Shown here piece after piece: positions 142 through 64,000 of a DNA stretch of 64,000 nt. The translations under genes were made by a program, and so were the position numbers. The first letter of the stretch is position 1; each line of letters begins with the position of its first letter. Under the pieces are notes generated by a model. The model did not search any database, was not told where the DNA came from, and worked only from the letters and a program-made list of their open reading frames with translations. Origin of the DNA: Acidobacteriota bacterium. GTDB lineage: Bacteria > Acidobacteriota > Terriglobia > Terriglobales > Acidobacteriaceae. The stretch covers positions 1 to 64,000 of the forward strand of contig JAGWNX010000007.1 of assembly GCA_028872955.1 (NCBI GenBank), in the 5' to 3' direction.

Positions 142-646
142 TGCTCCGCTGGAGCCCTGGTGGATGGAGGAGCCAACCAGTCCGGACGATATTCTGGGTC
201 ACGCGCGAATTCGCCGCGAGGCAGCGCCCATCCGCATTGCCACCGGCGAACATGTGCAGAACCGAATCATCTTCAAGCAACTGCTGCAGGCGCAGGCCAT
301 CGATGTGCTGCAGCTGGACTCCTGCCGTGTGGCTGGCGTGAACGAGAATCTCGCCATCCTGTTGCTGGCCGCGCGATTCAACATCCCGGTCTGCCCGCAC
401 GCCGGTGGCGTCGGCCTGTGCGAGTACGTGCAGCACCTGTCGTTCTTTGACTACCTCTCCGTGTCGGCCTCGCTGGAGGATCGTGTCATCGAGTTTGTCG
501 ATCACCTGCACGAGCACTTTGTGCATCCCACGGTGATTCGGAACGGGCACTATCAGCTGCCCGACGCGCCCGGTTACAGCATTCAGATCAAGCCAGAGTC
601 GCTGGCCCAGTACAGCTATCCGGACGGGCCAGCCTGGCGGATTTAG
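134..646 (+). pseudogene. C-terminal part of L-fuconate dehydratase, cut off by an inversion
   Basis: The enzyme dehydrates L-fuconate to 2-keto-3-deoxy-L-fuconate in the non-phosphorylative L-fucose pathway. Homology starts around LAPLEPWW and runs to SYPDGPAW near the stop. Visible family signatures are EEPTSPDD (a metal ligand region), STGEH-like IATGEHVQNR, GVNENLAILLLA, and CPHAGGVGLCE with the barrel His. The first 43 residues of the ORF-track protein (MTPFSGPSQR...) are not enolase-like. They are the antisense reading of the inverted N-terminal piece, so the called start at position 8 is false. Without the inverted segment the protein would lack its N-terminal capping domain and half of the barrel, so no functional enzyme is expected from this arrangement. 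The downstream gene starts 63 nt after the stop. Confidence 0.8.
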
Positions 647-709
647 CGCCGGGCGTCGCCTCGCTGGGCGGCGTCATGCTACTCTGCCTGCAACGCTGAA
701 ACGCCGCCT

Positions 710-2659
710 ATGGGGAAGCTGAGCCGTACCAACCCAATGCGCGCGCTGCCCGTGCGCATGCCGGCAGTGCTCTCGCTGCTGTGTGCCACGCTGGTGCTGT
801 GCGTGGCGCGCCAGATGACGGCGCAGAGTGCGCCAGCGCCGACCCTGCTCCATCACCCGGCGGCGCTGCTCTTTGACGCGGCGGGCAATCTCTACGTGGC
901 AGAGAGTGCTGCGCATCGGGTGCGGCGGTTTGATCCCACAGGCAACGTCACCACGATCGCGGGTAACGGCACGCAGGGCGTTGCTGGCGATGGCGGTGCG
1001 GCCACCGCCGCCGAACTGGATACTCCGCAGGGGCTGGCGCTGGACCCTGCAGGCTCCACGCTGTACATCGCCGACACGCACAACCAGCGCATCCGCGCGC
1101 TCAACTTGAGCACCGGAATCATGACGACGGTGGCAGGCAACGGCAGCCCCGGCTTCTCTGGCGATGGGGGCCCGGCCACGGCGGCAAGCCTTGCTGCTCC
1201 GGTTGCGCTGGCGATCTCTGCCGGGGGCAAGCTGGCCGTGGCTGATAGCGGCAACTCCAGAGTTCGTGAGATTGATCTGGCCGCCGGCACCATCCTGACC
1301 GTGGCGGGCAGTGGGACGCAGGGCTACTCCGGCGATGGCGGACAGGCAACTGCGGCCGCGCTCGACACTCCCACCAGCCTGGCCTACGACGCTGCGGGCA
1401 ACCTCTACCTGGCAGACACGCATAACCAGCGCATCCGCCGCGTCGACACGAAGGGTGTCATCACCACGGTTGCGGGCGCAGGTGCGCCGGGCTTTGCAGG
1501 CGATGGAGGCGCGGCCCTGGCAGCCAGCCTGGCCGGGCCGACAGGCATCAGTGTCGACTCCGGGGGCAACCTCTACTTTGCCGACGCAGGCAACCAGCGT
1601 ATCCGCAGAGTGGATGCGACCACAGGCGCGGTCACCACTGTCGTGGGCGAAGGTACGCAGGGCTACGCAGGCGATGGCGGCCCCGCCACGGCAGCCATGC
1701 TGGATACGCCGCGTGCCACCGCGTTCTCTCCTGCAGCGCTGCTCACTCTGGCCGACGCCGCCAACCAGCGCATCCGCCAGCGCACGGCAACCGCAACGCT
1801 GGTCGCCTTCGGGACTGCTTCGTCCACGTCCGGTGGGAGCCCAGGGCCAGTGGCCACCACGCTCACCTTGTCGGTCTCGCCGCAGTCTGCCGGTGTGGGC
1901 GTGCCGGTCACGCTGACAGCGCAGCTTGCGGCTGCCGGCGGAGCGACTCCCTCCGGGAGCGTCACCTTTCTGGATGCGCAGGTGCCCTTTGCTTCCGCCA
2001 CACTGGACGGTACAGGTCGCGCGACGCTGACCACCACGGCCCTGGCCGCAGGCACGCACACGCTCACGGCCTTCTACGCCGGCAGTGCTGGTTTTGCGGC
2101 GTCCACGGCAGCAGCCGTCTCGCTCACCGTGACGGCAGCCGGTACCAACACGCCAGACTTCAGCCTGGCAGTCACCAGTACCAGCAACCAGACGACCGCA
2201 CCCGGCGTTGCGACCAGCTTCAGCTTCACCGTGCAGGCCTCGCCCGCGCTGACCGGCCCCATTACGCTGGCCGTCTCTGGCCTGCCGACCGGCACCACGG
2301 CGTCGTTCTCGCCAGCGTATGTTCCCCCAGGAGGGGCGGGCACCAGCGTCACCTTGACCCTGACTCCGCCAGCCGCGCTGGCCGGGTTGTCGGTAGATCG
2401 CGCACCTATCGTGCTGGCCCTGCTTGCACCGCTGCTGATCGTCCGGCGTCGATTCAGGCTCCCCGCAGTCATGCTGCTGTGCTGTGTCCTGCTCGGCTGT
2501 GGTGATCGCATTCGAACGGCAGGCACAACCGCAGCGCCGCTGCAGGTCTATCCGCTCACTATCACGGCGACAACCACCGCGCCCTCTGGCGCGACGCTGC
2601 AACACACCCTGGTGGTGACGCTCAACATCCAGCCCGTGACCGCTACGGCCAGCTTTTAG
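710..2659 (+). CDS. NHL-repeat beta-propeller surface protein with Ig-like domains and membrane-hairpin C-terminus
   Basis: Predicted exported protein of 649 aa. Residues 1-45 form an N-terminal signal region with a hydrophobic core (AVLSLLCATLVLCVA) ending at AQSA. Residues 45-370 hold at least five NHL-type repeats of about 55 aa, each carrying a GDGG.A.AA.L motif and ending in NQRIR, which should build a beta-propeller. Residues 380-480 look like a Big_3-type Ig domain (SGSVTFLD, FYAGSAGF). From about 484 to the end comes another Ig-like domain. It is interrupted by two short hydrophobic segments separated by RRRFR, the second ending in VLLGCGD, before the last strands (LQHTLVVTLNI). The start at 710 is the first ATG; an ATG at 737 is also possible and neither has a good SD. 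Function is unknown; binding or scaffolding at the cell surface is inferred. Confidence 0.85.
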   Translation: MGKLSRTNPMRALPVRMPAVLSLLCATLVLCVARQMTAQSAPAPTLLHHPAALLFDAAGNLYVAESAAHRVRRFDPTGNVTTIAGNGTQGVAGDGGAATAAELDTPQGLALDPAGSTLYIADTHNQRIRALNLSTGIMTTVAGNGSPGFSGDGGPATAASLAAPVALAISAGGKLAVADSGNSRVREIDLAAGTILTVAGSGTQGYSGDGGQATAAALDTPTSLAYDAAGNLYLADTHNQRIRRVDTKGVITTVAGAGAPGFAGDGGAALAASLAGPTGISVDSGGNLYFADAGNQRIRRVDATTGAVTTVVGEGTQGYAGDGGPATAAMLDTPRATAFSPAALLTLADAANQRIRQRTATATLVAFGTASSTSGGSPGPVATTLTLSVSPQSAGVGVPVTLTAQLAAAGGATPSGSVTFLDAQVPFASATLDGTGRATLTTTALAAGTHTLTAFYAGSAGFAASTAAAVSLTVTAAGTNTPDFSLAVTSTSNQTTAPGVATSFSFTVQASPALTGPITLAVSGLPTGTTASFSPAYVPPGGAGTSVTLTLTPPAALAGLSVDRAPIVLALLAPLLIVRRRFRLPAVMLLCCVLLGCGDRIRTAGTTAAPLQVYPLTITATTTAPSGATLQHTLVVTLNIQPVTATASF

Positions 2660-2673
2660 GTGTTGCGTGCTCG

Positions 2674-3402
2674 TTAGATGTGGGCCAGGGTTCGCAGCAG
2701 GAAGAACAGGACGACGCCGCCAAAGAAGACGAGCGCCATGCGGATGCCGGGCTCACGATTGACCTCCGGCACCAGATCCGTACCCGCCACGTAGATGGTG
2801 ACTCCCGCGGACAAGGGCAACCCGAACCGCACCCAGGACGGAGCCAGGCTGATGACCAGCACGCCCAGCACCGTGGTAACGCCCAGCGCCAGGGCAGAGT
2901 TAAGCGCGGCCAGCTTGCCCCGGCCGCCCGCCAGCATCACGCTGGCCACCGTGAATCCCTCGGGCAGCTTATGCAGGAAGACAGCGAAGAACAGCACCCA
3001 GCCCAGCCAGCGCGAGAGGACAAATCCGCTGCCGATCGCAATGCCGTCAAAGAAGGTGTGCGTCGCCAGTCCCAGCAGCACCGAGTAGCTGGTGCGGGCA
3101 GAGAGAAACTCGTGGTGATGCGTCTCCTCGCCAAAGTGGAAGTGAGGCACCAGCGTATGCTCCAGCAGGTGAACTCCGCAGTAGCCGCCCAGCAGCAGCA
3201 GGGGAGACCAGTGCGGATAGATGGCCAGCCCCTCGGGCACCATCTCCAGTAGCGCGGCCGAGAGCATGAAGCCTGCGCCGACGGCCACAAAGTAGCGCAG
3301 GGAGCGTGCCGAGGGGGAGCGCTTCACCAGCAGCAAGCCGCCAATGTAGTCCGCCAGACCCGCGCCCAGGCCCAGCACCAGGCTCAACCAGAAGGTGTTC
3401 AT
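2674..3402 (-). CDS. ZIP-family divalent metal transporter
   Basis: Integral inner-membrane protein of 242 aa with about eight hydrophobic segments. Helix IV carries ATHTFFDGIAIGSGF and helix V carries FLHKLPEGF, the paired His/Asp/Glu metal-binding signatures of ZIP (SLC39-type) carriers, and HFHFGEETHHHEF is the histidine-rich loop before them. ZIP proteins usually move Zn2+ or Fe2+ into the cytoplasm; specificity cannot be read here. The ORF track starts at 3540, but the 46 extra residues overlap the upstream gene and are Cys/Arg/Trp-rich shadow sequence. The ATG at 3402 begins MNTFWLSLVLGLGAGLADY, a normal first helix, and GAGG lies upstream. It is the last gene of a minus-strand run, 13 nt after the DUF4149-like gene. 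Confidence 0.9.
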   Translation of the reverse strand: MNTFWLSLVLGLGAGLADYIGGLLLVKRSPSARSLRYFVAVGAGFMLSAALLEMVPEGLAIYPHWSPLLLLGGYCGVHLLEHTLVPHFHFGEETHHHEFLSARTSYSVLLGLATHTFFDGIAIGSGFVLSRWLGWVLFFAVFLHKLPEGFTVASVMLAGGRGKLAALNSALALGVTTVLGVLVISLAPSWVRFGLPLSAGVTIYVAGTDLVPEVNREPGIRMALVFFGGVVLFFLLRTLAHI

Positions 3403-3415
3403 CGTGCCGAGGGCC

Positions 3416-3937
3416 TCACAGCGCCTTGCTCTTGCCGGGCTCGGTCCACTGCGACTCACGCGCCAGCAGCAGCACGACGCCCAGCCCACCCAGCAGCACC
3501 AGGCCCTCCAGCCGCTCTGAGAGCATATGCAGCCGTTCAAAGTCTACCCGCGCCGGGGAATCGACGGCTGCGGTGCCGATGCTGCCGCCTGCCGCCAACC
3601 GGTCCACCTCCATCCGGGGGATGATGTGGAACTGGGAGTAGCAGGTGATCGCCAGCATGATGCCGGTCAACACCAGTTGCAGCGCAAAGGAGACGCGGGA
3701 ATCGACAGGCGCGCGCAGCCACAGGATTGCGGTGGTCAAGTAAAACAGGGCGCCGGTCACCAGCCCCATCCAGTGCAGCACGCGCAGGCACCCGCCCACC
3801 ACCAGGCCGGCATCGTGCGTATTGTTGAGCGAGCCGAAGGCTACCGGCGCAACAACAAAGGCAAAGAAGCAGAGACCGCCGACCCAGAGAACCATGCCCA
3901 GCAGACGCAGCGCCCGCAATACGGTCTCAACATTCAT
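3416..3937 (-). CDS. DUF4149-like (TMEM205-type) integral membrane protein
   Basis: Membrane protein of 173 aa with four predicted helices, around residues 8-32, 50-72, 82-102 and 142-160. The start LRLLGMVLWVGGLCFFAFVVAP followed by FGSL is typical of the DUF4149/TMEM205-like family, as is the HIIPRM element after helix three. The family is uncharacterised in bacteria, so no function is claimed. It sits between the exported lipoprotein (33 nt upstream) and the ZIP transporter (13 nt downstream) and is presumably co-transcribed with both and with the ccm genes. Confidence 0.75.
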   Translation of the reverse strand: MNVETVLRALRLLGMVLWVGGLCFFAFVVAPVAFGSLNNTHDAGLVVGGCLRVLHWMGLVTGALFYLTTAILWLRAPVDSRVSFALQLVLTGIMLAITCYSQFHIIPRMEVDRLAAGGSIGTAAVDSPARVDFERLHMLSERLEGLVLLGGLGVVLLLARESQWTEPGKSKAL

Positions 3938-3970
3938 CGGCGATCTCTCCTCTCGACCTCGTAGTTCGGG

Positions 3971-5266
3971 TTACGCCTGGCGCTTCAGCGCGCGACGCAG
4001 CACGGTCTCCAGTGCCTGCTTCTGCTCCTGGTAGCTGGCCTCATCGGTGGTGCCTTGCACCTTTTCCATCTCCAGCGCAAACAACTCTTCCTTGAGCGCA
4101 GCCAGCAGGGCGTTGCCAGAGACTGCGGGCGCGGGCTGTGTGGCAGCAAATCCAGAACTGCCGACGGGTGCCGGGCCAGCCTGCGGCCTCGGGGCGTTGG
4201 GGTCGCCCGTCTTCAGCAGGAAGCCTGCCGCGGCGGCCATCAACAGGCCCAGACCGCCGAGTATCCACCACTTGTACTTGGACCAGGGGTCGTTCGTACC
4301 GCTGGGGTCTACCGGCGTGCCAAGCCCGCCGCCCGGCCTCTGGTCCGTACTGGCAGAGCCACTCGGCGCGCCACCTCCGCCGCTGCTGCCGTCGGCGGAG
4401 CCCGTATCGCGCGGCAGCTGTCCGGTGCCCTCCAGCGTAAACTCCAGCGGCTGCTCCGGAGAGACGCTGCGGGCCACATACGTCTGGGCCGTCGTCTCAT
4501 CGGTCACCGGCGAAAAGGCTGCGCCGCTGCCAGCCGTAAACTTCATGCTCTTGGGCAGCATCACGGCGACCGTGTCGGTCGTCATGGTGGCCTTGGGGGA
4601 GAACTTGAAGCTGCCGCTGTACGGCACGGAGTACGTGACCTGAAAGCGGGTCTCGCCCGGGCGCAGCGGGAAGATGAACGTGTAGTGGTTGGGCTCGCTG
4701 AGCGGAACCGGCGCAGCCTGCACCGGCATGCCACCGGGCCCCAGCGCGGCCGAGCCGGCAATGACGGCACCTGCAGGCAGGTAGAAGTCGAATGGCCGCG
4801 GGCCAAACTGCGTCATAGGTGGTGCGGACTCATTCTTGATAAAGAAGTTCTCCACCACGTGCAGATTCTTGTCCCCGGCCTCGGTCTCGATGCGCATGAC
4901 ATCCGCCTCGGCCGTCACGCCCTTCACCTTCTCCGCCGAGTTGTACACGTCGACGTTCACCTCGCTGGTGCCCGGGGGCGCAGGGCCAAAGTAGTTGGCC
5001 TTATCATGCGTCACGCGAACCAGGTGCATGCCGTCTTCGGGCACCTGCAGCGTGTAGCGGCCGTGCGCGTCCGACGTGGTGCGGGTGGACTCCTGCATCC
5101 CCTGCGCCAGCCGCAACAGCACAACGTCGTCGCCTGCCGAGGGCTTGTTGGTGGTCTTGTTGGTCACTGTGCCGGTGATGGTTGCGGCCCAGGCGCAACC
5201 GCTCAGCAGTGTTGCCAGCACAGCGGTTACGGCCTTCGATCGTGGGGAGTACGCAAATTTGATCAC
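3971..5266 (-). CDS. Predicted lipoprotein with carboxypeptidase-regulatory-like domain and C-terminal membrane helix
   Basis: I choose the GTG at 5266 (MIKFAYSPRSKAVTAVLA...) over the track's ATG at 5302. It gives a normal lipoprotein signal with a basic n-region, a hydrophobic core and lipobox LLSGC, and it avoids an acidic VDVDLD leader that would overlap the upstream gene. Next comes an Ig-like 'carboxypeptidase regulatory' fold (ITGTVTNKTT, DAHGRYTLQV), then a beta-rich region, a Gly/Ser linker and one transmembrane helix (KWWILGGLGLLMAAAAGFLL). The C-terminus is about 80 residues, Ala/Pro-rich and then helical, with LKEELFALEMEKVQG and LRRALKRQA. That last part resembles the helical tail often found in ccm-linked proteins. 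The gene is fourth in the ccm run, so a role linked to heme delivery or envelope assembly is inferred only from context. Confidence 0.65.
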   Translation of the reverse strand: MIKFAYSPRSKAVTAVLATLLSGCAWAATITGTVTNKTTNKPSAGDDVVLLRLAQGMQESTRTTSDAHGRYTLQVPEDGMHLVRVTHDKANYFGPAPPGTSEVNVDVYNSAEKVKGVTAEADVMRIETEAGDKNLHVVENFFIKNESAPPMTQFGPRPFDFYLPAGAVIAGSAALGPGGMPVQAAPVPLSEPNHYTFIFPLRPGETRFQVTYSVPYSGSFKFSPKATMTTDTVAVMLPKSMKFTAGSGAAFSPVTDETTAQTYVARSVSPEQPLEFTLEGTGQLPRDTGSADGSSGGGGAPSGSASTDQRPGGGLGTPVDPSGTNDPWSKYKWWILGGLGLLMAAAAGFLLKTGDPNAPRPQAGPAPVGSSGFAATQPAPAVSGNALLAALKEELFALEMEKVQGTTDEASYQEQKQALETVLRRALKRQA

Positions 5267-13494: not shown

Positions 13495-13524
13495 CCGAGC
13501 AGAGTTCGCTGTGCCAAAAGATAC

Positions 13525-13546
13525 GGGCCACCCGGATGGGTGGCCC
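13525..13546. terminator. Hairpin between convergent kinase and VirB10-like genes
   Basis: Perfect 9-bp inverted repeat GGGCCACCC-GGAT-GGGTGGCCC in the 79-nt gap between two convergent stops. On the minus strand it is followed by a short T-rich run (ATCTTTTGG). On the plus strand there is no U-tract. It probably ends transcription from both sides, better for the minus strand. Confidence 0.6.
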
Positions 13547-13573
13547 TGCCTTCCTACGCCCGTCGCGAGACGG

Positions 13574-14530
13574 CTATTGCGCGCCGCCCGGGGAGTCTGT
13601 TGCCGTCGTGCGGGGAACAAGGCCAGTTCCTCCAACACCGTTGCTGATGCTGCGCAGCTCGAGCGGCTCCACCAGACTGAAGACCAGCATGGAGCCCTGG
13701 GGAAGGGCGGCTTGACGATCCTGCTTGAGCCACAGCACGGTGCTGACCCCTGCACCTACGCCAGCGCCTACCAGGGCACCGGCCGGACCGGCCATCAAGG
13801 CCCCGGCGGCGGCGCCACTGCCGGCGGTAAGGGCCAGCACGCCAGCGTTCTCCTTGGGGTGGTCGCGATGCGTCACCGTACCCTCGCTGGTGAGCTTGTC
13901 GTGCTCCTGATCGGTGTCAATCAGCTGAGCGCGCAGCGAGTAGCGCGTGCCGTCGGGCAGGGTCACGGTGCGTGCCTCCAGGTGCAGGGCAGCCGCACCG
14001 CTGATGCGCCTGCCACCATGTACCTCGGTCACGCGGCCCTCCAGCACGGAGCCAGCGGGAATGACGACACGGCCGTTCTGCAGTACGTCCTGGGCCAGGG
14101 GAGCGGTGAAGCGGCTGCCCTCCAGCGTCGAAGTGGTCGAGAGACTCTCGTTGATGCGCGCCTTCAGCAGCGTCCCTTCACGGATCTCGCCCTCGCGCTC
14201 GGGCACGCTGGTCACAATGCCTGCGTCCTCATCGCTTGCCGACGCGGCACTCGCGGAGGTGGTGACGATGTGCGCGTCAGGGTCAAAGGCCTGTTTGCTG
14301 AGCGGTGTGGTGGCGCTCTTGTACGGCACATAGGGCCCAAAGGTCTCTGTGGTGGCTGCGGCCGGTGCGGCGGGGGTTGCAGCTACGGGCTTGGCCGGCG
14401 TTGCGTCGTCACTGGTTGCGACGATGGGGGCATCGTCCGGATGCGAAACTCCAGTCGTCTGGGCCATAGCGACGTGCACGGCGGGTACTGCTGCAAAGAC
14501 GAGTGTTGCCATCCTGATCGAACGATTCAT
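13574..14530 (-). CDS. Exported protein with a TrbI/VirB10-like periplasmic domain
   Basis: Protein of 318 aa with a signal peptide (IRMATLVFAAVPAVHVAMAQ) and a low-complexity Ala/Pro/Thr segment (residues 40-65). The folded domain (residues 120-240) reads LLKARINESLSTTSTLEGSRF, VIPAGSVLEGRVTEV and LHLEARTVTLPDGTRY. That pattern resembles the beta-barrel C-terminal domain of VirB10/TrbI and related exported proteins. A Gly/Ala-rich segment (AGSGAAAGALMAGPAGALVGAGVG) resembles a glycine-zipper membrane motif. No other secretion genes are nearby, so a conjugation role is unlikely; envelope structure is a guess. SD GGAGG precedes the ATG by about 10 nt. Confidence 0.7.
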   Translation of the reverse strand: MNRSIRMATLVFAAVPAVHVAMAQTTGVSHPDDAPIVATSDDATPAKPVAATPAAPAAATTETFGPYVPYKSATTPLSKQAFDPDAHIVTTSASAASASDEDAGIVTSVPEREGEIREGTLLKARINESLSTTSTLEGSRFTAPLAQDVLQNGRVVIPAGSVLEGRVTEVHGGRRISGAAALHLEARTVTLPDGTRYSLRAQLIDTDQEHDKLTSEGTVTHRDHPKENAGVLALTAGSGAAAGALMAGPAGALVGAGVGAGVSTVLWLKQDRQAALPQGSMLVFSLVEPLELRSISNGVGGTGLVPRTTATDSPGGAQ

Positions 14531-22158: not shown

Positions 22159-23022
22159 ATGTATCCCTACATCAATCTGGGTCCGGTGCACCTGGGCACC
22201 TTTGGTCTGCTGCTGTGGCTGGCCGCTGTCGCGGCGACGGTGGTGTTGCATCGGAACTTTACCCGGTACGGCGTGGCTGCCGATGCGTTGAACGTGGTCG
22301 CCGTGGTCGTTGTCTCCGGCGTCTTAGGCGCCAAGACCTGGCATGAGTTGCAGAGCATCCCGGAGCTGACCTTCTCGCTACGGCAGATCGTCGCGCCCGG
22401 CTGGAGCAGCCCGCTCAGCGTGCTGGGGCGGTTTCTGCGCTGGTTTCAGGCCGGCTTTGCCTGGTATGGCGGCATGCTGGCCGGCATTCTGGCGCTGATG
22501 GTGCAGGGGCGGATGGCCCGCATGCACGGCGAGAAGCCAGAGCAGCCCGGGCCTCGGCTGGGCGCGCTGCGCATGCTTGACCTGGCGGCCCCGGCCGCAG
22601 CCATCGGCTATGGCGTAGGGCGAATCGGCTGCCTGACCAGCGGCGATGGCGACTACGGCATCAAGACGACGCTGCCCTGGGGAGTGCACATGCGTCCTGA
22701 CGCGCTGGTGCCCACGCCAGACCTGGTGCAGCCGACTCCGGTGTACGAGCTACTCTTCTCGCTGCTCGTCTTCTGGATTCTATGGCGCCTGAGCCGCTCG
22801 CCACGACACGTCGGCTGGTTGACAGGCCTGTACCTGGTGCTGAGCGGGATCGGCCGCTTTCTGGTCGAGTTTGTCCGCATCAATCCCCGCCTGTACTGGG
22901 GCATGAGCAACGCGCAGACAGCAGCACTCGGCAGCATTGTGGCTGGCGCCCTGGTGATGGCAGTAGCCAGCAACCGTGGCAGCCTGTGGAGCCCGCCAGT
23001 GGAGACCGGCCAGCCCGGCTAA
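22159..23022 (+). CDS. Lgt-like prolipoprotein diacylglyceryl transferase homologue, active-site variant
   Basis: Polytopic inner-membrane protein of 287 aa with about seven helices. The fold and several motifs match Lgt: start YPYINLGPVHLGTFGLLLW, GVGRIGCLTSGD, QPTPVYELLFSL (Lgt: HPSQLYE) and GIGRFLVEFVR with the conserved Arg. In E. coli Lgt, however, the essential His sits in SFHGGL; here the site reads AWYGGML. The Asn and Glu of GRLGNFINGELWG are also replaced (GRIGCLTSGDGDYG). It may be a variant Lgt or an enzyme with another lipid or acceptor substrate. The track's 26 extra N-terminal residues are dropped, since the ATG at 22159 has a good SD. It is divergent from hpt. Confidence 0.8.
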   Translation: MYPYINLGPVHLGTFGLLLWLAAVAATVVLHRNFTRYGVAADALNVVAVVVVSGVLGAKTWHELQSIPELTFSLRQIVAPGWSSPLSVLGRFLRWFQAGFAWYGGMLAGILALMVQGRMARMHGEKPEQPGPRLGALRMLDLAAPAAAIGYGVGRIGCLTSGDGDYGIKTTLPWGVHMRPDALVPTPDLVQPTPVYELLFSLLVFWILWRLSRSPRHVGWLTGLYLVLSGIGRFLVEFVRINPRLYWGMSNAQTAALGSIVAGALVMAVASNRGSLWSPPVETGQPG

Positions 23023-61525: not shown

Positions 61526-64000
61526 TTACTGCACCGTCAGGTTCAGGGTGACGGACTGCGTGATCTGCACGCCGGACGTGGAGCTGGCCGTCACCTGGTA
61601 CTGGTAGGTGCCCGGCGGCGTCACCCGGATGCTTGCGTCTCCGCCGGAGCCGCACCCTGTGACACCCGCCAGCACGATGGCAGCAATGACCGCGAGCAGG
61701 CGCGTGACCAGCGCACGCCGGCTTCGCACCCAGGGCAACAGGAATAATCCTGCCAGCGCAGGCAGCACCTGCAACCCACGGCTAGGCAGCCAGTGGCCGG
61801 GAGTCGCTGGTGGTGCAGACTGCAGCGCCCCCGTGGTGAGGCTAATGCTGGTGATGGTGTTGATGGTCGCCACGGCACTCTGCGCCGCGCCTGCAAGCGT
61901 GATGCTGGACGGCAGCAGGGAGCACGTCGCGTACTGTCCGGGCTGGATAGGGCTGCAGTTGAGCACCACCGTGCCGGAGAATCCATGGATCGGAGTCAAC
62001 GTCAAGGCATAGCTGGCCGGCTTGCCCGCAGCTACGGTCGCCGCCGCCGTGCTGCCCGGCGTGGAGCCAGCCGTGCCCACGGTGAGGGTGAAGGAGCCAG
62101 GCGCAACGCCGCTTCCACTGAGTGGCACAACGTCGGGCGAGGTGGAGTCCGAGCTGGTCACCGTCAGCGCCGCCGAGCGCGGACCGGTGGTCGAGGGCGT
62201 AAAGCTCAGCGTGAGCGTGCAGCTGGCACCGGCACCCAGCGATGTCGAGGCACACGGCGAGGTGATGGCAAAGTCCCCGGCCGGCAGAACCGGACTCAAC
62301 CCGGTGACAGGGCCGTTGCCGGTGTTGGTCAGCGTCAGGGTCAGCTTCGCCGAGGAGCCCACCAGAATGGAGCCAAAGTCCAGCGCGGAGGGCGCGAGCT
62401 GCAGGTGCGAGGCCGCGCCTACGCCGGTTAGCTGCGCCGTCAGCGGCAGCGTCGTAGCGTCCGAGACGATGGCAACACTGCCCGTGCGCGTACCCGTCTG
62501 CGTCGGCGTAAAGGTTACGGTTACGCTGCAGCTGGTGCTGGCCGCCAGCGCCGTGCCCAGGCAGCTGGAGGTGGCGGCGTAGTCGCCCGTCGCGGTGATG
62601 GAGCTGAAGTTGACTGGAGTCGCCCCGGTGTTGGTTACCTGCAGGGTCTGGCTGGCCGTACTACCCAGCAATACGGTGCCAAAGTTGAGCGACGCAGGTG
62701 CCAGGGCCAGGCTGGAGGGATTGGCTGAGCCTATCAGTGAGACGAACTCGAGCGCAGTGCTGGCGTCGGACGAGATCTCAATAGCTCCCAGCCGGGTTCC
62801 GCTCCCCTGGGGTGCAAACGCCGCGATGAGGTTGCAGCTGGCGCCTGGAATCAGGGCAGAGCAACTGCTGGTGACGTTGAAGTCAGGCGTGCTCTGCACG
62901 TTCAGAATATGGAGAGTCGCCGTGCCGGTGTTGGCCAGCGTTACCGTCTGCGGGGCAGAGATGTTGCCGACCAGCGTCGGGGGAAAGGTAAGCGAGCTTT
63001 GCGACGCGGTAAAGGCCACCAGCGGCGCAGTATTCGAGGGTGCATTCACCGCGACAGGTCCTGCCGATCCCGCCAGATCCAGAAACTGCGGGCTACTGAG
63101 GGCGTCGCTCTCCACGACCAGGGTTCCACTATCGGTAGTAGCCAGGGGTGAGGTGGTTCCGGTTGCGACCTGATTGAGCGGCGTGTACTGCACCGTCACG
63201 GTACAGCTTTGCCCGGTGGCGAGCGGCTGGCCGCAGGTCGAGGTCGCCAGGAACGGCCACTCCGAGGTGACCCGCCGCACCGTAACAGGTGCCGCGGCAT
63301 GGTTGGTCAGGGTCACGGTCTGACTGGCAGACTGCCCACTGGCAACCTGGCCGAAGTTCACCACGCCACCCGGTGCAATCGTGCCCGTCAAGGCCAGCGC
63401 GTTGGCCCCGATCCCGTAGCCCTGAAAGTAGCCAAGAGCAGCGACGCTGGCAGAGCCGTCCGTGGGGTAGCCCTGGGCAAAGAGCGTCCCGGTGATGGTG
63501 GCGTTGGTGAGCGGAACAAAGCTGACGGAGAAGGTGCAACTCGCGTTTGGCGCCAGGCCCGCGCAACCCGGCCCGGTCAGCGCAAACTGCCGGGGCAGGC
63601 TGAGCGTGACGTAGAGGGCCTTGGAGGTCAGATTATTGAGCGTGAACAGGCGCGTGATGCCGACAGTCGAGGTAGGGTTGGGGCCATAGTCCGCCGTGTC
63701 TGGCACCAGTTGCAGGCCTGCGTCCTGGGTGGTGTAGGCACCGCTCAGCGGCACTGGATAGGTGCTGGTGACCAGGTTGCCCGCCAGGTTTGCCGTAACC
63801 GGCACCGTTAGGACGTCGCTTACCAGCGCACTGCCTGGCGTAAAGTTCACCGTCAGCGTGCAGGTGCCGGCGGGTGCCAGCGCAGAGCAACCGGAGGAGA
63901 CCGTGAAGCTGGCACTGGTCACCGCAGGCGTGCCCACCTGCAGCGTGGCGTTGCTGGTGTTCGTCAGGGTAATCGTCTGCTGCACGGAGGTGCTGCCGGG
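61526..64000 (-). CDS. Large ASH/choice-of-anchor-D repeat surface protein with membrane-hairpin C-terminus, 5' end outside the window
   Basis: About 825 residues are visible and the start lies beyond 64000. It carries at least six repeats of about 90-100 residues (LNFGTVLLGSTASQTLQVTN, LDFGSILVGSSAKLTLTLTN, LTFPPTLVGNISAPQTVTL). These are ASH/HYDIN-like Ig domains, each with a Cys pair (SSC...SC) before a FTP end that may be disulfide-bonded. The C-terminal domain (FTLTVGTAGST, HGFSGTVVLNCSPIQPG, AVATINTI) is split by two hydrophobic segments around VRSRR. The second ends in LAGVTGCGSGG, and the last strands (PPGTYQYQVTASSTSG, SVTLNLTVQ) follow. No adhesion function is shown. It lies 5 nt from the convergent riboflavin gene. 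Confidence 0.85.
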   Translation of the reverse strand, partial: PGSTSVQQTITLTNTSNATLQVGTPAVTSASFTVSSGCSALAPAGTCTLTVNFTPGSALVSDVLTVPVTANLAGNLVTSTYPVPLSGAYTTQDAGLQLVPDTADYGPNPTSTVGITRLFTLNNLTSKALYVTLSLPRQFALTGPGCAGLAPNASCTFSVSFVPLTNATITGTLFAQGYPTDGSASVAALGYFQGYGIGANALALTGTIAPGGVVNFGQVASGQSASQTVTLTNHAAAPVTVRRVTSEWPFLATSTCGQPLATGQSCTVTVQYTPLNQVATGTTSPLATTDSGTLVVESDALSSPQFLDLAGSAGPVAVNAPSNTAPLVAFTASQSSLTFPPTLVGNISAPQTVTLANTGTATLHILNVQSTPDFNVTSSCSALIPGASCNLIAAFAPQGSGTRLGAIEISSDASTALEFVSLIGSANPSSLALAPASLNFGTVLLGSTASQTLQVTNTGATPVNFSSITATGDYAATSSCLGTALAASTSCSVTVTFTPTQTGTRTGSVAIVSDATTLPLTAQLTGVGAASHLQLAPSALDFGSILVGSSAKLTLTLTNTGNGPVTGLSPVLPAGDFAITSPCASTSLGAGASCTLTLSFTPSTTGPRSAALTVTSSDSTSPDVVPLSGSGVAPGSFTLTVGTAGSTPGSTAAATVAAGKPASYALTLTPIHGFSGTVVLNCSPIQPGQYATCSLLPSSITLAGAAQSAVATINTITSISLTTGALQSAPPATPGHWLPSRGLQVLPALAGLFLLPWVRSRRALVTRLLAVIAAIVLAGVTGCGSGGDASIRVTPPGTYQYQVTASSTSGVQITQSVTLNLTVQ

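Follow-up and report, generated by a model that had tools for sequence, protein, structure and literature searches.

In bacterial lipoproteins, a basic region and a hydrophobic core lead to a [GAS]C motif at the outer face of the membrane, on which the diacylglyceryl transferase Lgt and signal peptidase II (LspA) act (PMC8048626). The MYXO-CTERM tail, found on dozens of exported proteins, consists of an invariant Cys, a transmembrane segment (TM) and an Arg cluster, and its lipidation has been proposed (PMC11980579). The PEP-CTERM/exosortase and GlyGly-CTERM/rhombosortase systems likewise have an Arg cluster behind a TM at the C-terminus. Proteins with the GAIN/GPS domain of adhesion GPCRs, which serves here as an analogy only, are cut inside a beta domain, and their pieces can stay together; this cleavage is autoproteolytic, in a eukaryotic setting and without lipidation. 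Finally, NCBIfam release 20.0 holds a model, NF058595 (invert_tail, 'lipo-invert putative C-terminal anchoring domain'), for a C-terminal tail with a hairpin, a Cys and following strands.

We analysed a 64,000-nucleotide stretch of an acidobacterial genome, hereafter the window, in which two proteins carry a tail of this kind. The first is encoded at 710-2659, and the features of both copies and of the candidate enzymes are listed in Table 1. The initial annotation had described, within the last Ig-like domain of this NHL protein, a TM, the RRRFR cluster, a second TM, a Cys and resuming strands; the coordinates and this description proved correct. The last strand before the hairpin is TSVTLTLT (aa 545-552), and a short linker separates Cys597 from the two C-terminal strands. 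No Pfam model matched this last Ig-like domain, and the signal peptide at the N-terminus contains no lipobox. Downstream, a convergent gene (2674-3540, minus strand) looks by eye, from its translation, like a ZIP-type metal transporter.

Table 1. Features of the two tail-bearing genes and of the candidate enzymes in the window.
Feature	Position	Strand	Basis or remarks
Whole gene	710..2659	+	649 aa; exported protein with an NHL propeller and a split-Ig tail
Sec signal peptide, SPI-like	710..826	+	h-region aa 19-34, MTAQS-AP; hydropathy, sequence
NHL beta-propeller repeats	842..1780	+	Pfam NHL 1.1e-26, TEN_NHL 4.6e-35
Intact Ig-like domain Big_3_5	1868..2134	+	Pfam E 1.5e-20
Split Ig domain, first part (strands A to E)	2153..2365	+	AlphaFold2 strands, pLDDT mostly 90-97
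TM1 APIVLALLAPLLIV (aa 565-578), out to in	2402..2443	+	Hydropathy; low-confidence helix in AlphaFold2 model
Cytoplasmic Arg cluster RRRFR (aa 579-583)	2444..2458	+	Basic cluster kept among relatives
TM2 LPAVMLLCCVLLG (aa 584-596), in to out, lipoprotein-signal-like shape	2459..2497	+	Hydropathy, family profile
Lipobox-like Cys597	2498..2500	+	Invariant: 77/77 and 34/34 relatives
Strand F, same Ig domain (aa 612-623)	2543..2578	+	AlphaFold2 pLDDT about 97
Strand G, same Ig domain (aa 629-640)	2594..2629	+	AlphaFold2 pLDDT about 95-97
Second tail copy on Ig-repeat protein	61529..61849	-	NF058595 1.3e-12, 48 bits, cut-off 37
Lgt (diacylglyceryl transferase), candidate enzyme	22171..22962	+	PF01790 4.1e-37
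LspA (signal peptidase II), candidate enzyme, only copy found in genome	30933..31364	-	PF01252 6.7e-42

The tail resembles each of the described systems in part. Like the MYXO-CTERM/myxosortase tails, it sits at the C-terminus of exported proteins and combines an invariant Cys with a TM and an Arg cluster, but in MYXO-CTERM the order is Cys-TM-Arg, the C-terminus is cytoplasmic and a lipobox is not defined, whereas the window tail runs TM-Arg-TM-Cys within an Ig fold, with its C-terminus outside. The MYXO-CTERM arrangement, in which the Cys precedes one C-terminal TM and an Arg tail, is thus not what we found: the order is reversed and strands follow. TM1 and the Arg cluster recall PEP-CTERM and GlyGly-CTERM, but no signature motif precedes TM1 (there is no PEP motif in ORF 710-2659), and a second TM and more protein follow. 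With the bacterial lipoprotein signal the tail shares the basic region, the hydrophobic core and [GAS]C at the outer face of the membrane; unlike that signal it is internal, has a second TM before it and lies near the C-terminus (Cys597 of 649) rather than at the N-terminus. The motif before Cys597 is LLGC, with Gly at -1, but Leu at -2 lies outside the strict lipobox [LV][ASTVI][GAS]C, so that only a permissive lipobox is matched.

Cleavage of signal peptides by SPI and the positive-inside rule are established, and the positive-inside topology proposed earlier, with both Ig halves outside, was supported. AlphaFold2, run on the window domain with 23 relatives, gave a mean pLDDT of 82.7, with most strand blocks on both sides of the hairpin at 90-97 and the hairpin itself at 57-63, and placed the strands before and after it in a single Ig sandwich. 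Strands F and G packed on the upstream strands in that sandwich; a lack of such packing had been named in advance as grounds for refuting the initial proposal. With Foldseek, about 160 columns spanning both halves aligned to Ig-fold domains (the FimC chaperone, a sialidase) at E values of about 2e-4 to 1e-3. A profile in which both halves were joined directly matched 116 intact, uninterrupted Ig domains in other proteins, in which the E-F connection has the form TVTTAxTTPAGTYTLTVTG. Because one fold is predicted and the joined-half profile finds intact Ig domains, the hairpin has, by sequence and model, been inserted into the E-F loop of an Ig family that is itself common, and the earlier proposal of one Ig fold across the hairpin stands. 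In a sequence search of the PDB there was no credible relative; matches to recA fusion chains (E 9e-4) appear to be spurious.

The second-copy ORF (61526-64000) runs past the window edge and has its Cys at 61652-61654. AlphaFold2 predicted the same strand order as for copy 1, with lower confidence (pLDDT 71, 11 sequences).

To place the tail in its wider context, we compared the last 169 residues of copy 1 with the window's own assembly and 60 relatives, which gave matches in 48 of the 61 genomes, many of them over the full query; the nearest homologue of copy 1 has 57% identity. A profile made from 21 tails was then searched over 297 Acidobacteriota genomes and matched 69 of them. Full-length, hairpin-containing matches concentrate in the window's own family, and two distant genomes (G268, G322) have one each. 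These two single high-scoring tails (L162 and L161, respectively) belong to a distant acidobacterial family (f51). From the matches we extracted 80 distinct tails, of which 77 were left once redundancy had been removed. That the architecture might be an artefact of a two-gene fusion, a misread frame or a chance hydrophobic stretch is close to inconceivable, since it recurs in dozens of unrelated reading frames from several families of the phylum; this explanation is refuted by conservation.

NF058595 matches 20 of the 21 aligned tails and scores above its cut-off (37 bits) in 39 of 41 relatives. Phylum-wide, at E 1e-8, it was found in 36/297 genomes, nearly all in the window's family, and it had no match in 14 control genomes. 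Well-covered genomes of the window's genus have about 5-29 matches and those of the sister family mostly 3-15. In some of the searches, tallies take in at most 13-14 scored candidates per genome. The model misses window copy 1 (no match at E<=10), although it matches copy 2 and copy-1 orthologues (e.g. G013:C2:184549 at 51 bits). When aligned with NF058595 members, copy 1 has the C-terminal position, the TM-basic-TM hairpin, the Cys and the trailing strands. Copy 1 is thus not called by the model's threshold, yet by orthology and anatomy it belongs to the same kind. The feature that the initial annotation had assigned to one NHL protein is real there, but rather than being peculiar to that protein it is a C-terminal module that occurs in many copies and already has an NCBIfam model. 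We found no paper describing the tail in a literature search that included 'lipo-invert' and 'internal lipobox'. The tail kind is already in NCBI's family library, and because NF058595 is known here by name only, we claim no priority for the Ig-split reading.

The N-terminal parts of tail carriers are unrelated and include an NHL propeller, CHB_HEX/Fn3, FG-GAP with 17 Ig repeats, glycoside hydrolase 44, a GDSL lipase and an SBBP propeller. Some N-termini are truncated at draft-genome loci; in 43 tail proteins the hydrophobic region at the N-terminus is complete and clear, and it is followed by an SPI-like AxA in 35 of them and by a lipobox in none. Because it is carried by unrelated N-terminal parts with non-lipoprotein signal peptides, the tail behaves, judging by its sequence contexts, as a sorting or anchoring tag and not as part of one enzyme. 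With the same tail on roughly 5 to 30 different predicted surface proteins per related genome, the anchoring device itself is real.

The tail's anatomy exceeds what chance would give. Loss of the Cys in homologues had been named at the outset as grounds for rejecting the initial proposal; the Cys was kept in 34/34 closest homologues and in all 77 non-redundant tails found with the profile. Because the profile had been built from Cys-bearing tails, a separate, Cys-blind scan of the same DNA was made for C-terminal TM-basic-TM hairpins followed by 25-75 residues; it returned no Cys-less Ig tail, and the Cys-less matches were unrelated proteins or wrong frames. The residue at -1 is G, A or S in 75/77 tails and the residue after the Cys is G in 60/77. 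At least three K/R within 10 aa form the basic cluster in 76 of the 77, and an acidic residue is absent from this cluster in 75. The TM2 spacing after the last K/R is 13-23 residues, and 32-53 residues separate the Cys from the C-terminus. Every tail forms the end of its protein, with 0-9 residues beyond the profile match. In a further 32 loci from the NCBI model, G/A/S preceded the Cys chosen by our script in 31; in the remaining locus a second Cys was apparently picked by the script.

For comparison, G/A/S precedes 23 of 94 ordinary membrane cysteines at these loci (24%). The difference from 75/77 gives a Fisher p of about 6e-25, a value that ignores relatedness and overstates the significance, as the 77 tails are related sequences and their counts are not independent. 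N-terminal lipoproteins taken from local ORFs were too noisy a reference set to serve as a positive control. The lipobox itself is loose: near-strict [LVI][ASTVI][GAS]C occurs in 34/77 tails and a permissive lipobox in 69/77. An internal disulphide as the general role of the Cys was rejected, because in 28 of the 77 the available part of the ORF contains no further Cys that lies outside the membrane.

These patterns weigh on two readings in which the chain stays intact. In one, the hairpin would be an uncleaved, unlipidated two-helix anchor, with the Cys kept for another reason, for instance helix packing or a contact with a metal or redox partner at the face of the membrane. Such an anchor would work without processing, the near-strict lipobox is present in under half of the tails, and the uncleaved chain modelled by AlphaFold2 already forms a complete Ig fold; however, an invariant Cys with G/A/S at -1 is the signature of lipoprotein processing and not of an ordinary membrane Cys, and many tails have no partner Cys, so that we regard this reading as unlikely. 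In the other, Lgt would lipidate the Cys and the chain would remain uncut, giving a hairpin with an extra lipid. MYXO-CTERM offers a precedent, in that lipidation at the invariant Cys is proposed to come before a separate protease acts (PMC11980579), but the -1 residue, where LspA cuts, is constrained as in lipoproteins, and we consider this second possibility rather improbable.

On balance, we lean towards a module that anchors proteins by their C-terminus and whose TM2 also serves as a lipoprotein signal; lipidation of the Cys by Lgt and cleavage by LspA would then leave an Ig domain made of two chains. In this scheme, which draws on the sequences and the models, the N-terminal SPI signal would export the protein, TM1 would stop transfer with the Arg loop remaining inside, and TM2 would re-insert as an internal lipoprotein signal. 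At the outer leaflet of the inner membrane, Lgt would then lipidate the Cys, and LspA would cut before it. This would yield a large chain with the membrane hairpin at its end and a lipidated one of about 32-53 residues, the two being held together by the packing of strands F and G in the Ig sandwich. The more specific proposition, that signal peptidase II cleaves midway through a folded Ig domain and a lipidated F-G pair holds the large chain non-covalently, on about 5-30 proteins per genome in one acidobacterial order, we put at slightly short of an even chance. The loose lipobox (34/77 near-strict; Leu at -2) and the lack of a co-varying dedicated enzyme speak against the scheme.

It also counts against the scheme that an LspA cut alone would leave the large chain membrane-bound via TM1-TM2, with no evident benefit of the lipid. 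If a rhomboid-, CPBP- or exosortase-like protease made a second cut, ahead of TM1, the need for a lipidated piece within the Ig fold would be explained: the large chain would have the lipidated F-G chain as its sole carrier and could reach the outer membrane or the surface. TM1 and the Arg cluster do resemble known C-terminal sorting tails (PMC11980579), but the alignment contains no conserved cut motif before TM1, and a search of four genomes that carry 9 to 29 tails each (G003, G005, G011, G015) found no exosortase. We therefore think a second cut improbable, and on the result for these four genomes an exosortase as a required partner was rejected.

If the favoured scheme of Lgt and LspA acting on TM2 and the Cys were accepted, predictors that look for lipoproteins only at the N-terminus would miss a whole lipoprotein class. 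The tail is common in Acidobacteriota, on enzymes as well as adhesin-like proteins, and offers a direct test of the general lipoprotein pathway on an internal signal; protein anchoring at the acidobacterial surface appears little studied in the literature searched.

Because no special enzyme tracks the tail, the general lipoprotein machinery is the simplest candidate. LspA is single-copy in nearly all genomes examined. The host genome has two Lgt homologues, the main one in the window (22171-22962, plus strand) and a second, divergent one at G000:C134:44418-45146 (minus strand). Most well-assembled genomes of the window's genus also have two, whereas the sister family mostly has one. A second Lgt as a dedicated partner is not required, since the majority of sister-family (f2) genomes with the tail have a single Lgt. 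That LspA, Lgt and two tails fall in the same 64 kb is probably a coincidence. The window's genome also encodes two exosortase homologues, and on another of its contigs (L155, G000:C100) a further split-Ig protein has an exosortase gene about 9 kb away (235-4767 and 13504-14265).
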